Assembly: GCA_035936835.1 (NCBI GenBank)
Contig: DASYVT010000068.1
Coordinates: 1-46,047, forward strand
Reading direction: 5' to 3'
Length of the DNA: 46,047 nucleotides
Source: Candidatus Methylomirabilota bacterium
GTDB lineage: Bacteria; Methylomirabilota; Methylomirabilia; Rokubacteriales; CSP1-6
In this document: in pieces, positions 5,060 to 40,035 of the stretch
Layout of the letters: the number at the start of each line of letters is the position of its first letter
How positions within the stretch are numbered: the first letter of the stretch is position 1
Notes under the pieces: model-generated
Database searches by the model: none
Told to the model about the DNA's origin: nothing
What the model saw: only the letters and a program-made list of their open reading frames with translations
Position numbers and translations under genes: made by a program

Positions 5060-5866
5060 ATGTACGGCAAGGGGTCGGCCGGCTTCCCTCAGCGCATCGT
5101 GTGTCTCTCCTCCGAGCACGTGGAGATCTGCTACGCGCTTGGTGCAGGGGAGCGCGTCGTCGGCGTGCCCGGCACGGCGCACAGGCCTCCCGAGGCGCGG
5201 GAGAAGCCGAAGATCGGCGGCTTCACGAGCTTCCGCGCCGACAAGATCCTGGAGCTCGAGCCCGACGTCGTGCTGGCCTTCTCGGACCTCCAGGCGGACA
5301 TCAGCGCCGAGTTGATCCGCGCCGGGCTGCCCGTCTTCTGCTCCAACCCGCGCTCGATGGACGAGATCCTCGCCACCATCATCATGGTGGGCGGGCTGCT
5401 GGGGCTCGAGAAGCCCGCGCGCGATCTCGTCCAGGACATGCAGGACGAGATCCGGCAGGTGCGGGAGTTCTCCGCCGTCTGGCCCGACAGGCCCCGCGTC
5501 TACTTCGAGGAGTGGCACGACCCGCTGATCGCGGGGATCCGGTGGGTCTCGGAGGTCATCGAGATCGCCGGCGGGCGCGACATCTTCTCCGAGCTGCGGG
5601 ACAAGGCCTCGGCCAAGGACCGGGTGGTGGATCCCGGCGAGGTCGCCCGCCGGAACCCCCAGATCATCCTCGCCTCATGGTGCGGCAAGCCGGTGGACCT
5701 GGAGGCGATCCGGAAACGCCCCGGGTGGGAGGCGGTGAGCGCCGTCAAGGAAGGCCGTATCCATGAGGTGGACGGGGCTGATATCCTATCTCCAGGGCCA
5801 TCGGTGCTGGCGGGGCTCAGGCTTATCCACGAGATCATCCAGCATGGGCTGGGGGGAGTAGCGTAG
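5060..5866 (+). CDS. BtuF/FepB-like substrate-binding protein without signal peptide
   Basis: A 268-residue protein of the helical-backbone metal/cobalamin-binding fold (TroA/BtuF superfamily). It has VCLSSEHVEICYALGAG at the N-terminus, GGFTSFRADKILELEPD near residues 54-70 and a C-terminal RPGWEAVSAVKEGRIHEV, all standard for cobalamin ABC binding proteins. Family members are normally exported, but no signal peptide or lipobox is present, so this protein should stay in the cytoplasm. No permease or ATPase gene is adjacent. It is annotated elsewhere as cobalamin-binding protein by similarity; the ligand is not proven here. Confidence 0.8.
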   Translation: MYGKGSAGFPQRIVCLSSEHVEICYALGAGERVVGVPGTAHRPPEAREKPKIGGFTSFRADKILELEPDVVLAFSDLQADISAELIRAGLPVFCSNPRSMDEILATIIMVGGLLGLEKPARDLVQDMQDEIRQVREFSAVWPDRPRVYFEEWHDPLIAGIRWVSEVIEIAGGRDIFSELRDKASAKDRVVDPGEVARRNPQIILASWCGKPVDLEAIRKRPGWEAVSAVKEGRIHEVDGADILSPGPSVLAGLRLIHEIIQHGLGGVA

Positions 5867-33773: not shown

Positions 33774-34754
33774 GTGAACAAGCCCGGAGTACCCGCGCCG
33801 GGGTTCATCAAGCGGATCGGCCCCGTCATCGACGAGCGGCGCGCCGTGGAATTCCGGCCGCTTGAGAGCTCGGAGCTCGTAAACCGTTTGAGCAATCCGC
33901 GGCTGCCCTTTGGTTGGACAGTCAACCCTTTCCGCGGCTGCGAGTTCGGCTGTCGATACTGCTATGCCAGGCCGACGCACGGCTATCTGGGTCACACCGA
34001 CCCTGCCGAGTTCGAGACGCGGATCTACGTGAAGCAGGCCGACGAGGCGAAGCTCCGCTCGCGCTTGAAGCGCGCGCGGGAGAGCGGCGAGGAAGTAGCC
34101 ATAGGAGCGGCAACGGACCCCTACCAGCCGGCCGAATCGCGCTTCGGGGTCACGCGGCGGGTGCTCGAAAGCGTCGAGCGGGTGCCCGGCCTGCGGGTCG
34201 GCATCACCACGAAGTCTCCGGCCATCACGCGCGACATGGACCTGCTCCGGCGGATCGCGGCGGCGGGAGAGCTCGTGGTCAATATCTCGCTCACCTCGCT
34301 CGACGCGGCCCTCCTCCGTCGCATCGAACCCCGCGCCCCGCGTCCCGATCTCCGTCTCGGGGCCATGGCGGCGCTGACGGCGGCAGGCGTCCCGGCCCGA
34401 CTCTTTGCCATGCCGGTGCTGCCGTTCCTGACCGACCGCGCGGTCGCGCTGCGGGCGCTCTTCGCCGCGGCGCGCACCGCCGGAGCGCGAGAGGCCATTT
34501 GGAACGTCCTCTTCCTCCGCGGCGAGACCCACGGGTTCTTCCTCGACTTCATCGCTCGCGAGTTTCCCCGGCTCCTGCCGCGGTACCGCGCGCTGTACGC
34601 GGGCGGGGCCACGGCGGAGGCCAGCTACCGTGAGCGCGTGGAGGGGATGGCGGCGCGCGTGGCCCTCGAGGCGGGCTTCCCGGGACGGAGCCGGGCGGAC
34701 CGGATCGCCGCCGAGCGACCCGCCCGGCCGCGTCAGCTGCTACTCGAGTGGTAG
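33774..34754 (+). CDS. Radical SAM protein, SplB/Rv2578c-like
   Basis: A 326-residue radical SAM enzyme. The cluster ligands are C56, C60 and C63 (CEFGCRYC), in the typical setting WTVNPFRGC and YARPTHGYL of the spore-photoproduct-lyase-like Rv2578c family. GAATDPYQPAE (~116) and ITTKSP (~143) are further family motifs. The start is GTG. The last 15 bases overlap the convergent DNA polymerase gene. The reaction is unknown; a role in DNA damage is possible but inferred from the family alone. Confidence 0.85.
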   Translation: MNKPGVPAPGFIKRIGPVIDERRAVEFRPLESSELVNRLSNPRLPFGWTVNPFRGCEFGCRYCYARPTHGYLGHTDPAEFETRIYVKQADEAKLRSRLKRARESGEEVAIGAATDPYQPAESRFGVTRRVLESVERVPGLRVGITTKSPAITRDMDLLRRIAAAGELVVNISLTSLDAALLRRIEPRAPRPDLRLGAMAALTAAGVPARLFAMPVLPFLTDRAVALRALFAAARTAGAREAIWNVLFLRGETHGFFLDFIAREFPRLLPRYRALYAGGATAEASYRERVEGMAARVALEAGFPGRSRADRIAAERPARPRQLLLEW

Positions 34755-37004
34755 CTGGGCCGGGCCCTCGGGTAGGCCCTCGCCCGCGGGGGCGAGGCCA
34801 TCCTGCTCGATGAGCGGGCGGAATTTCTCGTAGAGATCGTCGAGCTTGGCGAGGTAGTAGGCGGTGTTCTCGTCCGGAGCCGCGGGATTCCATTCGGCGG
34901 CGAGCTTGGCCGCCTCGTTGACTTTCACGCGCTTTCCCTCGCCGGCGACGTAATAGGAAACCTGGTCGCCCGCCTGGTACGGCCGCTCCGAGCGAAGCGC
35001 CAGCTCGTAGGCGGCCGAGACGTTGCGCTTTCTGTCGCGGAGCTTGTCCTGGTAGCCGGCGGGTGACTCCTGGAGCGTCTCCGTTTTCATGAACTGCTTG
35101 ACCGGCACGCGGTGGGCCTCAAAGTCCTCCTGCCAGCGCTTGACGAGGGCGGGGATCTCATCGCGTCGCCCCGTCAGCAGCAGCCGGAACATCTCCTCCA
35201 GCCACAGGCGTTGGAAGAGCTCGATGCCGCGTGAGCGCAGCCCCGAGCCCTTGACCAGGAGCTTGCCGCGGTGGTCGAGCAGGACGTAGTTCTTCATCTT
35301 GTAGGAGAGCATGGCCTCGTAGCGGCCCCCGAGCTCGAGCTGGATGCCGGGCGGCAGCACGCGCTCGAGCTCGGCGATGAGGGTCTCCTCGTCCCTCCCG
35401 GCAGGCGGGACGAAGTAGAGGCCGTCGGTGTCCACCTCTATGACCGACGCGCCCAATTCGCCGAGACGCTCCACGAGCGACATGACCAGCGCGCGCCCTT
35501 CCCCGGTGACGCGGTTGGCGGCGTCGTAGTCGTTCCAGTGCCCCTGCGAGAAGGCGAGATAGCCGTAGAAGGAGTTGATCAGGATCTTGAAGGTCTGCTG
35601 GAGGGCGCCGAGGAGCGTTCGGTCGGCCTCGGCCGGCGCCTCGCGCGCGAGCCGCTTGGCCGCCAGCCGGAACTCGCGGAGATCGCCGAGCAGCTTCGGG
35701 AAGACGCCCAGAGTGTCGCGGGCGGGCGCGATCTTCCGCGTCAGCATGAGCGACGGGTAGAGCGAAGTGACGTCGGCGTGGAGCACCGGCCGGGCCACGC
35801 CCGTGAGAAGCACCGTCGTGTAGCCTCCGGCCACGGCCTTGCCCGCCGCCGGCGCGGGCACGGCGCGACGCTGGTGCAGGTACTCGCGCATCAGGAGCCC
35901 GTCGATCTTGGTCGCGTTGCCTCGGAGCACCACTGATTCGTAGGACAGCGGCAGCGCCTGGGCCTGGACGAAGTACGGCGGCGAGAGCAGCCCCGAGAGC
36001 GCCAGCGTCTCGACCACGTCGTCGCGCGCGTAGGCCATGAGCCGTTCGGGTTCTTCCCGGAAGATGCGGGGGATGTCTTCGGGCGGCAGGTACGTGCGCT
36101 CCGGCGCCGCGATGCCGAAGTGGCGCGCGACGTCCTTGAGGCCGTAGGACTCGAGGTCGCGGGCGGCGATGTCATAGAGCTGGACGAGGATCCACGTGTC
36201 CACGATGTGACGGCCGGCGACCGCGTAGCGACGGTAGGCGATGGTGCGCTCGGCCACCTGCATGCGAGAAGGCCGGCCGGTCAGCGCCGAGCCGTCGCGC
36301 CCCCAGGCGAGCGGCACCTTGTGCCGCCGGGCGCGCGCCTCGATGTACTCGAGGTCGAAGCGGAAGATGTTGTGGCCCTCGAGCACGTCGGGGTCGCGCT
36401 CCCGGATCAGGCGTCCGCACTCCGCCAGCAGCTCGGCCTCGCTCATCAGGGCGCCGGAGAGCACCGTGGTGAAGCCCGCCGAATCGGCGATCGCGATGGC
36501 AATGATGCGGTCGGACTCGCGGGCGGCGTTGGGGAACTCGAAGCCGGGCGCCGTCGTGACTTCGATGTCCACGGCCATGCGGTGCACGTCCTCGAAGGCC
36601 ATCCCGAGGAAGGACGTCCGGCCCGTGCGGAGCAGGAACTGGTGGACGGGGTCCGAGAGGAATAGATAGGGCGCGTCCGGGACTCCCGCGGTGCGACCGG
36701 AGACGCGCTGGGCGTGGTCGCGCGCCTTGAGGCAGTGGCTCCAGGCGGGGAACTCGGCCAGCCAGCGGTACGCCGCATCGCCGTCGAGGGGCACGATGGT
36801 CGCATCCCCTTTGAAGCCCGTCAGCAAGTTTGGGTCCGCGAGGAGCAGGAAGGGCCGGAAGGGCTCCTCGGTGACGCGCGCGACACCGTCGCGCGACCAG
36901 ATCCGCACGGCCTCCTCGCCGGCCTCGAAGGCGACCTGCCCGGAGGTGCCTGCGCGACCGAAGAGCAGGCGGTTGTCGTAGAAGGGCAGGGGCAGGCGCG
37001 TCAA
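34740..37004 (-). CDS. B-family DNA polymerase (Pol II-like)
   Basis: A 754-residue family B polymerase with 3'-5' exonuclease. Exo I has D146 and E148 (DIE), Exo II N212...D217 (HNIFRFDLEY) and Exo III Y325...D329 (YARDD). Polymerase motif A is DVTSLYPSLM (411-420), motif B KILINSFYGYLA (473-484) and motif C VDTDG (D525, D527), so it should be active. The start is TTG and lies within a 16-base repeat shared with the end of the upstream TPR gene. Probable role is repair or translesion synthesis. It sits at the end of the DsbA-like/TPR operon. Confidence 0.92.
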   Translation of the reverse strand: MTRLPLPFYDNRLLFGRAGTSGQVAFEAGEEAVRIWSRDGVARVTEEPFRPFLLLADPNLLTGFKGDATIVPLDGDAAYRWLAEFPAWSHCLKARDHAQRVSGRTAGVPDAPYLFLSDPVHQFLLRTGRTSFLGMAFEDVHRMAVDIEVTTAPGFEFPNAARESDRIIAIAIADSAGFTTVLSGALMSEAELLAECGRLIRERDPDVLEGHNIFRFDLEYIEARARRHKVPLAWGRDGSALTGRPSRMQVAERTIAYRRYAVAGRHIVDTWILVQLYDIAARDLESYGLKDVARHFGIAAPERTYLPPEDIPRIFREEPERLMAYARDDVVETLALSGLLSPPYFVQAQALPLSYESVVLRGNATKIDGLLMREYLHQRRAVPAPAAGKAVAGGYTTVLLTGVARPVLHADVTSLYPSLMLTRKIAPARDTLGVFPKLLGDLREFRLAAKRLAREAPAEADRTLLGALQQTFKILINSFYGYLAFSQGHWNDYDAANRVTGEGRALVMSLVERLGELGASVIEVDTDGLYFVPPAGRDEETLIAELERVLPPGIQLELGGRYEAMLSYKMKNYVLLDHRGKLLVKGSGLRSRGIELFQRLWLEEMFRLLLTGRRDEIPALVKRWQEDFEAHRVPVKQFMKTETLQESPAGYQDKLRDRKRNVSAAYELALRSERPYQAGDQVSYYVAGEGKRVKVNEAAKLAAEWNPAAPDENTAYYLAKLDDLYEKFRPLIEQDGLAPAGEGLPEGPAQLPLE

Positions 37005-37034
37005 TTCAGGAGACCCCCGTCAATTCAGGAGACC
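37000..37034 (-). repeat. 16-bp direct repeat, period 19, at the TPR/polB junction
   Basis: Copies at 37000-37015 and 37019-37034. One holds the TPR stop and the other the polymerase start. In a single-copy state the TPR stop TGA and the polymerase TTG would overlap (TTGA), so the duplication has separated two formerly overlapping genes. Confidence 0.9.
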
Positions 37035-37505
37035 AATGAGGCGATGGAGCTCCCTGCGCGCCGCCGTGTAGCGCGGCTCGATGGCGATGGCGCCCTGGAG
37101 CTCGCGAATGGCTTCATGGACCTTGTGCCGGCGCACATAGATGCGCGCGAGGTTGAAGTAGGGAAAGTGCCGGGGCTCGTAGCGCGGCGCGACCTTGGCG
37201 CGCTCGAGCCACGGCATCGCTTCGTCTTCACGGCCGAGCTCGATCAAGTACGCGCCGATGTCGTTGTACGGGTTGCCGAACGTCGGGTCCACGGCGATGG
37301 CGGTCCGGCACTCCGCGATGGCGTCCTCGTGCCGGCCTTGGTGGGAAAGCGCCCAGCCGAGGAAGGTGTGGGCTTCGGCGGTCGGCTGTATCGCGATCGA
37401 ACGGTGGTAGCACTCGATCGCCGCGTCGATCCGGCCGGCCATCTGCTCCTCGTAGCCGCGCTCGAAGTGCTCGCGCGCCTCCCCCGCCCACTCGCGCTCG
37501 GCCAT
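37020..37505 (-). CDS. Tetratricopeptide-repeat protein
   Basis: A 161-residue protein of about four TPR units, each with the A-W-G-Y/F-A-P pattern (for example AIECYHRSIAIQPTAEAHTFLGWA, split by unit, and DAIAECRTAIAVDP). No signal or membrane segment is present. It lies ten bases downstream of the selenocysteine-type DsbA gene and upstream of polB. A protein-protein scaffold role is expected; the partner is unknown. Confidence 0.85.
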   Translation of the reverse strand: MAEREWAGEAREHFERGYEEQMAGRIDAAIECYHRSIAIQPTAEAHTFLGWALSHQGRHEDAIAECRTAIAVDPTFGNPYNDIGAYLIELGREDEAMPWLERAKVAPRYEPRHFPYFNLARIYVRRHKVHEAIRELQGAIAIEPRYTAARRELHRLIGLLN

Positions 37506-37515
37506 GTCGCGCCCG

Positions 37516-38118
37516 CTAGGCGTCTTCGATCGCCTTGCGGTAGGTGGGCAGGTCCACGAGGCCGGTCAGCCGCCTGCCGCCCTCCACGATGATGGTCGGG
37601 ATCGCGCGCACCCGGTCACGGGTCACCGCTTCCTCGTAGTCACGCGTCACGGCGTCGCGTGCCGCGCCGCTCTCCAAGTCACGGAGAAAGCGCGTCATGT
37701 CCGCGCCGGCTTCCTTGACGACACCCACCAGCTCGTCCGGCTTGGCGATATTGATGCTCCGGCCGAAGAAGGCCGCGTAGAGGAGCAGGTGGAGACGGTC
37801 GAACGCCTGAGCACCCTGGAGCTCCACGCACTTGGCCGCCTCCAGCGCCGGCAGGGACCAGTTCGGGTAGTCATCGCGGGGCCACGGCGTGTACGTGATG
37901 CCGTCGCTCGCCGCCATGGCGCCGCAGCGGCGCCACCCCTCTTCCCGGTACGTGCCCTTGAACACGACCGACGGGTCGGGCTCCGGGCGAAGCGGAAAGG
38001 CCTTCCACTGGATGACGAGGTCGTCACCCATCTCATCTTTAAGTCTCCGGAGGCGCACGGCCGCCGGGTAGCACCACGGTCAGAGGTAATCAGCGTATTC
38101 CACGATGTGCACAGGCAT
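37516..38118 (-). CDS. DsbA/FrnE-like oxidoreductase with in-frame TGA in the active site (candidate selenoprotein, UPWC)
   Basis: A thioredoxin-fold protein of the DsbA/FrnE family, 200 residues if the TGA at 38080-38082 is read as selenocysteine 13. From the ATG at 38118 (GGGAGG upstream) the sequence runs MPVHIVEYADYL-U-PWCY, where homologues have DYLCPWCY; the resolving C16 is kept. The cis-proline loop RAIPT (P174) needed for thiol chemistry is present, and the whole fold follows. No signal peptide, as in FrnE. Reading TGA as stop would leave a 12-residue peptide; starting at the GTG at 38058 would remove the active site. It leads the operon with the TPR and polymerase genes. Confidence 0.87.
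38047..38082 (-). promoter_or_regulatory. Candidate bacterial SECIS after the DsbA-like TGA
   Basis: After TGA, GGCG-GCCGTG-CGCC gives a four-pair stem with a six-base loop starting with G, 18 bases after TGA. Alternatively CCGGCGG pairs with CCTCCGG (one mismatch). Weaker than the hairpin in the rhodanese gene, but within the known distance window. Confidence 0.4.
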
Positions 38119-38132
38119 GGTCGCCTCCCGGA

Positions 38133-38159
38133 GTGATTGTACCGGGTGTGATTGTACCG
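38133..38159 (-). promoter_or_regulatory. Duplicated -10-like element upstream of the DsbA-like gene
   Basis: A 12-base unit occurs twice, 15 bases apart (38133-38144, 38148-38159). On the minus strand each copy contains TACAAT, a good -10 hexamer. The nearer one would start transcription about 10-12 bases before the ATG, leaving only the Shine-Dalgarno in the leader. Confidence 0.5.
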
Positions 38160-38198
38160 CAAGGGGCGGTCACGAGGCGGACCGCGTGACGGTTGCGA

Positions 38199-38204
38199 TA
38201 TACT
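38199..38204 (+). promoter_or_regulatory. -10 hexamer (TATACT), probable leaderless start
   Basis: TATACT ends seven bases before the ATG at 38212. There is no Shine-Dalgarno and no clear -35. Confidence 0.45.
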
Positions 38205-38211
38205 CCCGCGC

Positions 38212-39069
38212 ATGACGCGAGGATCCCTCGTCGGAGTCCTTTTGTGCGCCGCCGTCGCCGGCGGCTGCGCCGGGTCCATCTCCTTCGAGAACGCGACCCC
38301 GAAGACGCCGGAGCGCGTCGAGGGGCGTCTCGTCAAGCCGGGCGGGTCCGGGCCTTTTCCCGCGCTCGTCCTTCTTCACGGCTGCCACGGCGTCTCCCCG
38401 CAGGTCTACGCCTGGGCGCGCTGGCTTGCCGACCGGGGCTACGTCGCCTTCGTTGTAGACAGCTTTGGGCCGCGCAAGGAGCCGGCGGACTGCAAGGACG
38501 ACCCGAGCCCCGGCGCCATGCCCAACACCGCGCGCTTCGACGATGCGATCGGCGCCTTGCGGTATCTGCAGTCCCGGCCGTTCGTTGTTCCGGATCGGGT
38601 CGCGTCGTTCGGCTGGTCACAGGGGGGACAGTACGCCATGTCGGTCATCAACGGGCCGACCCTCGAGCGCGCCCGCGCGCGGGGGGTCCCGCTGCCGCCG
38701 GTGGGATTTGCCGCCGGCATCGCCATGTACCCGGGCGGATGCCGCGACTACGCCAAGGAGCTGGTCGTGAGACCCCTGCTCCTTCTAATCGGCGGCTCAG
38801 ACGACTGGACGCCGCCCCAATACTGCCGCGAGATGGCGGCGAACGTGAGGGCGCGCGGCGCCGACGTGACGCTCGTCGAGTACAAGGGCGCCTACCACTA
38901 CTTCGACGTGGTCGGCCAGCGGAAGGAGGTGCTCAAGGACATCGAGCAGCCGTTCACGCGGGGCAGCTACGGCGTGACCGTCGCGTACGATCCCGAGGCG
39001 GCGGCCGACGCCCAGCGGCAGGTCGAGGCCTTCCTGGCGCGGGTCCTCAAGGGCGCGCGGCCGCGCTGA
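38212..39069 (+). CDS. Exported dienelactone hydrolase family protein
   Basis: A 285-residue alpha/beta hydrolase with an N-terminal lipoprotein-like signal (LVGVLLCAAVAGGC; the lipobox is imperfect). LLHGCHGVSP (~54), nucleophile elbow GWSQGG (~138, Ser instead of the Cys of classic dienelactone hydrolase), acid in GGSDDWTPP (~201) and histidine in YKGAYHYFD (~230) form a complete triad. An in-frame upstream extension lacks support. It is followed by a hairpin before the HtrA-like gene. Confidence 0.83.
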   Translation: MTRGSLVGVLLCAAVAGGCAGSISFENATPKTPERVEGRLVKPGGSGPFPALVLLHGCHGVSPQVYAWARWLADRGYVAFVVDSFGPRKEPADCKDDPSPGAMPNTARFDDAIGALRYLQSRPFVVPDRVASFGWSQGGQYAMSVINGPTLERARARGVPLPPVGFAAGIAMYPGGCRDYAKELVVRPLLLLIGGSDDWTPPQYCREMAANVRARGADVTLVEYKGAYHYFDVVGQRKEVLKDIEQPFTRGSYGVTVAYDPEAAADAQRQVEAFLARVLKGARPR

Positions 39070-39126: not shown

Positions 39127-40035
39127 ATGGACGCGTCGGTCGAGCTCGTCAAGCGGCTCCTGGCCTCGGTGGTGCACATCCACGCCGAGGTGCCTGCGGC
39201 CCATCCCTCCGCGCGGATACTCGGCGACGAGCGCATGGGTACCGGCATCATCGTGGACCCCTCGGGGCTCATCCTGACCGTCAACTACGTGGTCATGGGC
39301 GGCGAGACCATCCAGGTGAGCTTCGGCAAGGGGCGCTCCCAGCGGGCGGAGATCGTGGCCCAGGACTTCGAGCTCGGGCTTGCCTTGTTAAAGGTCAAGC
39401 GGACGAACCTGCCGGCGGTGCCTGTCGCGTCCTCGGATGACCTGGACCGCGGTGAGCCCGTCTTCGCGCTCGGTGCCACGGGTCCCAGGGAGCGGCGTGT
39501 GTCGGGCGGGCTCTTGACCTACCTCGGCGAGTTCGAGGCGTACTGGGAATATCTCCTCGATCGGAGCCTGGTGTCGAGCGCGGCGAATCCCGGCTTTGGC
39601 GGCGGCCCGCTGTTCACGATCACAGGGCGGATGGTCGGCGTGGTCTCGCTCAACCTGGGCGAGATCATGCGCGTGTCGCTGGCCATCCCCGGCGAGTGCT
39701 ACCTGGCGAATCGCGAGGAGTACCTGCGCCACGGGCGCGCGGTCAGCCGACCGCAGCGGGCGTGGCTGGGCGTCTTCGCCCATCCGCTCGACGAGGGCGT
39801 GGTGGTGGCGGGGCTGGTGCCCAATGGGCCCGGCGCGCGCTCGGGCATTCGCGAGGGCGACGTCATCCTCTCGCTCGACGCCCACCAGGTGCCGACGCGG
39901 AAGGACCTGTACCTGTCCCTCTGGCGGCGAGGGCCGGGAGAGCGGATCGCGCTCGAGGTGATGCGCGATAACGAGCTCAAGCGGCTCGACGTGACCGGCG
40001 GCGACCGTGCGGACTTCTACAAGCAGATCTCCTGA
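39127..40035 (+). CDS. HtrA-like pseudoprotease with PDZ domain
   Basis: A 302-residue protein with a trypsin-like S1C (HtrA/DegP) domain and a C-terminal PDZ domain (about 205-290: PNGPGARSGIREGDVILSLD). All three catalytic positions are changed. The His of ILTxxHVV is Tyr54 (ILTVNYVV), the Asp of DLALLKV is Gly84 (LGLALLKV), and the Ser of GNSGGPL is Gly158 (GFGGGPL). The fold motifs around each are intact, so this is a maintained non-enzymatic protein rather than a decayed gene. No signal peptide or membrane anchor is visible, unlike most HtrA. A role as a chaperone or PDZ scaffold is possible. Confidence 0.87.
   Translation: MDASVELVKRLLASVVHIHAEVPAAHPSARILGDERMGTGIIVDPSGLILTVNYVVMGGETIQVSFGKGRSQRAEIVAQDFELGLALLKVKRTNLPAVPVASSDDLDRGEPVFALGATGPRERRVSGGLLTYLGEFEAYWEYLLDRSLVSSAANPGFGGGPLFTITGRMVGVVSLNLGEIMRVSLAIPGECYLANREEYLRHGRAVSRPQRAWLGVFAHPLDEGVVVAGLVPNGPGARSGIREGDVILSLDAHQVPTRKDLYLSLWRRGPGERIALEVMRDNELKRLDVTGGDRADFYKQIS

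Follow-up and report, generated by a model that had tools for sequence, protein, structure and literature searches.

The question raised by this locus is whether a TGA codon standing in frame within a predicted redox-enzyme gene ends that gene or is read as an amino acid. The gene lies in the window, by which we mean the whole stretch of 46,047 nucleotides analysed here, taken from a genome of the bacterial phylum Methylomirabilota, which we take to include the Rokubacteria; among named genomes, those closest to it are Candidatus Rokubacteria/Rokuibacteriota MAGs. The reading which we hold to be very probable as a whole is that the gene encodes a selenoprotein, a cytosolic disulfide enzyme of the DsbA/FrnE type in which insertion of selenocysteine (Sec) is directed by a hairpin. 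The comparisons presented below support the view that the apparent stop in this gene of a soil/groundwater bacterium encodes Sec as the catalytic residue.

Gene and reading frame

37516..38118, minus strand: putative Sec-containing DsbA/FrnE-like gene of 200 codons, with UPWC (Sec13, Cys16) and the cis-Pro loop RAIPT (Pro174)
38080..38082, minus strand: TGA at codon 13, predicted to encode Sec; kept in all 41 of the loci whose active site is intact, and aligned with Cys in members of the sister subfamily
38116..38129, minus strand: ATG start, preceded at 5-nt spacing by the ribosome binding site GGGAGG, seen in the sequence

The preliminary description of this DNA had proposed an ATG with a good Shine-Dalgarno sequence which opens a frame running through the TGA, and this was confirmed: the region upstream of the ATG at 38118 (minus strand) reads GGGAGGCGACC, with GGGAGG at 5-nt spacing. 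Residues 1-12 are MPVHIVEYADYL, followed by the TGA (38082-38080), by PWCY and by the rest of the frame up to a stop at 37518-37516 (minus strand). The TGA occupies the nucleophilic Cys of CPWC, giving UPWC, and Cys16 is the second active-site Cys, so this part of the earlier proposal also agrees with the sequence and its translation. The other cysteines of the product are at 65 and 97 only, with none after residue 97. When the TGA was translated as Sec, the Pfam family DSBA (PF01323) matched residues 5-197 of the 200-residue product (E=7e-22; 78.6 bits against a cut-off of 25.6), with UxxC at the CxxC position. The match thus spans the TGA, and the full DsbA/FrnE fold with its cis-Pro loop, as described earlier, is upheld as a prediction. 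The conventional ORF call begins at GTG 38058 and, as had been foreseen, yields a product of 180 aa with the active site missing; standard gene calls drop the active site in this manner, so that annotation throughout the whole phylum would show the enzyme as an inactive fragment.

A 15-bp tandem repeat with TACAAT hexamers, CGGTACAATCACWCC, is present at window 38130-38159, just 5′ of the ribosome binding site. A scan for a sigma-70 promoter or terminator consensus upstream of the DsbA-like gene found none.

Conservation of the TGA and of the upstream codons

The TGA was found at the same column in all 41 loci having an intact active site, which belong to several families of the phylum; three pairs among them encode identical proteins, each pair perhaps a single genome retrieved twice, and 38 distinct sequences remain once these are merged. 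Exactly one TGA was present in every copy of at least 44% identity covering the active site in the phylum search, and no Cys form of the window gene's own subfamily was found in the phylum. Recurrence of an in-frame TGA at one column in every intact locus goes beyond chance. Across the loci, the flanks SDYL-U-PWCYPAAVR are nearly invariant. The GTG at 38058 from which the ORF caller starts is GTC or GTT in 24/41 and is therefore not a conserved start.

Loss of purifying selection upstream of the TGA had been named beforehand as grounds for rejecting a selenoprotein, and it was not observed. Codons 2-12, which precede the TGA, were compared among six close relatives: 6 columns vary only synonymously, 2 show nonsynonymous change and 3 are invariant. 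The Asp at -3 is invariant in 41/41 loci with both of its codons in use. Change among close relatives is mostly synonymous, which supports purifying selection on these codons. Selection was judged from the close relatives because pN/pS over all pairs is saturated (raw values 0.54 upstream, 0.43 for +1..+20 and 0.56 later).

One syntenic copy (L066, 4950-5260) is without the C-terminal half and without the Sec codon and SECIS, together with about 20 surrounding residues, and the family B DNA polymerase gene (PolB) stands directly after the broken copy; real decay and an assembly fault are both possible. The idea that this break followed loss of the Sec machinery was considered and dropped. The genome G025, taken as that of L066, yielded no selA, selB or tRNA-Sec, and it keeps SelD with an in-frame TGA, so that an assembly gap may be involved.

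Selenocysteine machinery

A genome devoid of Sec machinery would likewise have spoken against a selenoprotein in the preliminary description, and here the machinery is complete. The window's genome (4.1 Mb, 99.9% complete) contains tRNA-Sec (71.3 bits), SelA (583.7 bits) and SelB (373.9 bits), both linked to tRNA-Sec, and SelD (347.6 bits), whose own frame holds one TGA; all four exceed their curated cut-offs. SelB is present in 84/95 genomes of the phylum and SelA in 83/95, and since they occur in nearly every genome, co-occurrence across genomes is uninformative. The TGA gene is present in four genomes (G002, G003, G035 and G092) in which selA, selB and tRNA-Sec were not detected; all four keep a Sec-type SelD, which makes a missing linked contig the likely reason. 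The same joint lack with a Sec-type SelD retained is seen in G025, and one missing linked contig probably accounts for each of the five. A second SelD, without TGA, lies beside the Sec-type SelD in one of these relatives (G002:C54:11480-12397). TGA serves as an ordinary stop too, and terminates the neighbouring TPR, dienelactone-hydrolase-like (DLH) and HtrA ORFs of the window.

SECIS hairpin downstream of the TGA

38047..38067, minus strand: bacterial SECIS upper hairpin CCGG-C-GGC[CGUG]C-GCC-U-CCGG, with its apical loop 20 nt downstream of the TGA

A search for a SECIS element downstream of the TGA had been suggested earlier, and it returned a bacterial hairpin with synonymous covariation at positions 24 and 27. 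The published bSECIS model has a loop of 3-9 nt, an upper stem of at least 4 bp, a G in the first two loop positions, a spacing of 16-37 nt and an MFE of at most -7.5 (PMC13188914). The window element agrees with this model: its 5-nt loop is CGUGC, its stem has 3+4 bp interrupted by a 1x1 mismatch, the spacing is 20 nt and the energy -12.6 kcal/mol; the 21-nt core in other species ranges from -7.1 to -13.3.

G25-U26 are conserved in the loop and are flanked by positions 24 and 27, the third positions of codon +7 (Ala) and codon +8 (Val) respectively; changes at both are synonymous. The two bases are C-G in 17, G-C in 17, G-U in 7 and mismatched in 0 of the 41 loci. Their mutual information (0.98 bits vs 0.38 for the next pair) is the strongest among all 561 pairs of third bases tested in the gene. 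On the tree, each base requires seven switches; when strongly supported branches only are counted, there are four independent switches of 24/27, all in step, a number too small to be significant by itself (sign test p 0.125). We infer that 24 pairs with 27, so that GU alone makes up the loop. In the E. coli-type element G23/U24 are in the loop and G23 contacts SelB (PMC8659212), and G25-U26 of the window loop resemble this pair. Synonymous covariation in the SECIS loop is natural evidence for a paired N-GU-N' loop.

Four-fold sites of codons +1..+12 are less variable than those elsewhere (mean entropy 0.72 vs 1.31, p=0.003). Measured against synonymous shuffles, the core hairpin, at a mean of -11.0 kcal/mol, has the greater stability (mean z -1.7), while the whole 54-nt region does not (mean z -0.18). 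The lower stem is incompletely paired in some species (at 17-35, 10/41 have C-A), and pairs shift register in some, e.g. L035 and L045. RNAalifold on the 29-sequence alignment gave a weak consensus only (-4.18), because coding constraint and the shifted pairings hide the stem; it was the covariation of third bases that revealed the signal. An Rfam search of the locus returned nothing relevant.

Alternative readings of the TGA

The TGA could also mark a pseudogene or a sequencing error, a Cys codon having become a stop and the 3′ part either decaying or being translated alone from GTG 38058. An ordinary ORF caller gives exactly that truncated ORF, and the syntenic copy in L066 is truly broken; however, the codon is fixed in the intact loci of different species, the residues upstream of it are conserved, and the GTG sits in the SECIS loop, where more than half of the loci offer no start codon at all. 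This explanation is in our judgement highly improbable. Reading of the TGA as another amino acid, through a change of code or Trp suppression, would leave the frame open just as well, as would any code in which TGA is a residue. Against it stand the TPR, DLH and HtrA genes of the window, which end in TGA, the Cys found at this position in sister genes, and the presence of Sec machinery and a SECIS, so that we give it hardly any credence. The core interpretation, a selenoprotein with Sec at the first active-site Cys, is accordingly the one which machinery, conservation and SECIS bear out as a prediction.

Related DsbA-like subfamilies in the phylum

A sister subfamily has UPWC (TGA) in L068/L069 and CPWC in their close relatives L067/L070; on the sequences, this is the Sec/Cys exchange expected of real selenoproteins. 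Retention of Sec in every intact copy of the window gene's subfamily, set beside Sec/Cys switching in the sister, provides a natural comparison for studying why Sec is retained. In at least five further, more distant DsbA-like groups of the phylum, the first Cys of the active site is likewise replaced by an in-frame TGA, among them L071/L072 (UPYC), L073/L075/L076/L077 (UPWC[FL]VAEVRL), L074 and L079-L082 (UPWCYLSTVRIEKL) and L078 at 5241-5858 (UCWC); the phylum holds several parallel seleno-DsbA lines. A plasmid search recovered only DsbA family genes at 27-29% identity.

Genomic neighbourhood

37020..37505, minus strand: TPR-repeat protein, second in the apparent operon, ordinary TGA stop
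34740..37004, minus strand: family B DNA polymerase that includes an exonuclease domain, third in the apparent operon
38152..39069, plus strand: DLH-like gene with lipoprotein-like N-terminus, divergent, conserved neighbour
39127..40035, plus strand: HtrA/DegP-like protease gene, conserved neighbour

The true start of the DLH-like gene is probably an ATG near 38212. The DsbA-like gene and the TPR gene are on the same strand with a gap of 10 nt, and this spacing together with the conserved order points to co-transcription with TPR and PolB. PolB is downstream on the same strand in 32/38 loci within flanks of up to 1.5 kb, counting L036, where it overlaps the DsbA-like gene by 25 nt; the TPR gene is directly downstream in 13/38, and the divergent upstream neighbours DLH and HtrA occur in 25/38 and 21/38. 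Five more distant loci (L035, L037, L045, L046 and L048) keep the selenoprotein and have no PolB nearby within flanks of up to 1.5 kb, so the linkage is real but narrower than the selenoprotein. The operon with TPR and PolB, which had been called unexpected, therefore stands as a linkage conserved in Rokubacteria, but it is a lineage-specific neighbourhood absent in distant relatives. It is improbable that in Rokubacteria the Sec-only DsbA/FrnE subfamily is functionally linked to PolB and TPR as a selenium-dependent redox step for DNA replication or repair. A parallel to the DsbA-like/PolB linkage is provided by Deinococcus, in which DsbA/DsbB genes lie in an apparent operon with uvrA (PMC8945050).

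The TPR/PolB junction contains a 19-bp tandem duplication, GGTCTCCTGAATTGACGSG, at window 36997-37034, which carries the TPR stop and the PolB start.

Predicted fold and mode of action

The AlphaFold model of the product has a pLDDT of 94.7. Deinococcus radiodurans FrnE was at rank 1 in Foldseek and again first in a second structure search, with Z 23.5 and rmsd 2.1 over 195 residues, and the product is predicted to be a thioredoxin-fold enzyme of DsbA/FrnE type. The fold starts at residue 3 and there is no signal peptide, from which we infer a cytosolic location. YjbH, an adaptor for Spx, as well as SCO1869 and a putative disulfide isomerase of Nitrosomonas (2in3), have the same fold as the window model (Z about 22); to our knowledge none of these three is a selenoprotein.

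A selenoprotein with a glutathione-linked role, like that of kappa GST, HCCA isomerase or DsbM, in place of FrnE-like disulfide exchange appears rather unlikely, although it deserves attention: structures of kappa GST, HCCA isomerase and DsbM follow at a short distance (Z 19-20), and by sequence the top PDB match is a possible HCCA isomerase (E 5e-4). Nevertheless, the FrnE/DsbA motif is UPWC/CPWC with a second Cys, we know of no such two-residue redox pair in kappa GST or HCCA isomerase, and FrnE tops both structure searches.

For the FrnE-like enzyme, the following course may be proposed. SelB with Sec-tRNA-Sec would read the UGA at 38082-38080 as selenocysteine, directed by the downstream hairpin. 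By analogy with CPWC enzymes, the Sec13 selenolate of UPWC would attack a substrate disulfide, or alternatively Sec13 would form a selenenyl-sulfide with an oxidised thiol; Cys16 would then resolve the Sec13 intermediate, and thioredoxin, or a different thiol donor of low potential, may re-reduce the Sec13-Cys16 bond, as FrnE suggests. Under oxidative or metal stress, the enzyme would most likely serve to reduce or isomerise disulfides, and in Rokubacteria its gene would be co-transcribed with those of TPR and PolB.

Comparison with known systems

The family can not be regarded as new as a selenoprotein, since DsbA-like COG2761 proteins with UxxC were reported in 2005: the Sargasso Sea study of Zhang, Fomenko and Gladyshev described nine DsbA-like COG2761 UXXC selenoproteins with SECIS elements (PMC1088965). 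Like the window gene, these have Sec for the first Cys of CxxC and a bacterial SECIS downstream (PMC1088965, PMC13188914). A 2026 catalogue contains 'DsbA-like protein form 1', PF01323 (PMC13188914), and the table of a 2016 survey gives 'DsbA-like protein 41, 45', which we read as 41 organisms and 45 genes (PMC5029168). According to a citation in PMC13188914, a Methylomirabilota MAG was recently predicted with 63 selenoproteins. From the 2005 and 2016 reports and this MAG, both the kind and the selenoprotein richness of the phylum were already known. The published DsbA-like kind (AACY01178397 / NIP15863.1) comes from marine fragments with one accession listed, and it is likened here by description. 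In the published accounts of DsbA-like selenoproteins that were consulted we found no description of Rokubacteria, of a Sec-only subfamily or of a PolB neighbourhood, and no NCBIfam model covers the subfamily of the window gene. What appears new here, no earlier description having been found, is a version conserved across the phylum and usually adjoining a DNA polymerase gene. The only NCBIfam model matching the window protein is NF041057 (Rcas_1661 family thioredoxin-like (seleno)lipoprotein), at 43.1 bits against a cut-off of 190 and in the C-terminal part only, which places the protein outside that family; its members are lipoproteins, whereas the window protein has no signal peptide.

Among enzymes with Cys, the closest comparison is D. 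radiodurans FrnE (DR_0659; 5cnw, 5xwh), which likewise has a cytosolic DsbA-type fold with CPWC at the same place but uses Cys, not Sec, and shares about 20% identity with the window product. It is a cytosolic disulfide reductase/isomerase whose disruption sensitises the cell to cadmium and diamide, and its C-terminal CXXXXC helps to regenerate the active site (PMC8945050). The features of the FrnE subfamily (cd03024) found in the window product are the DsbA fold and CP(W/F)C with Sec as the first Cys, while CXXXXC is absent. FrnE of D. maricopensis and S. roseofulvus is also without CXXXXC (PMC8945050), so this motif does not define the whole FrnE subfamily.
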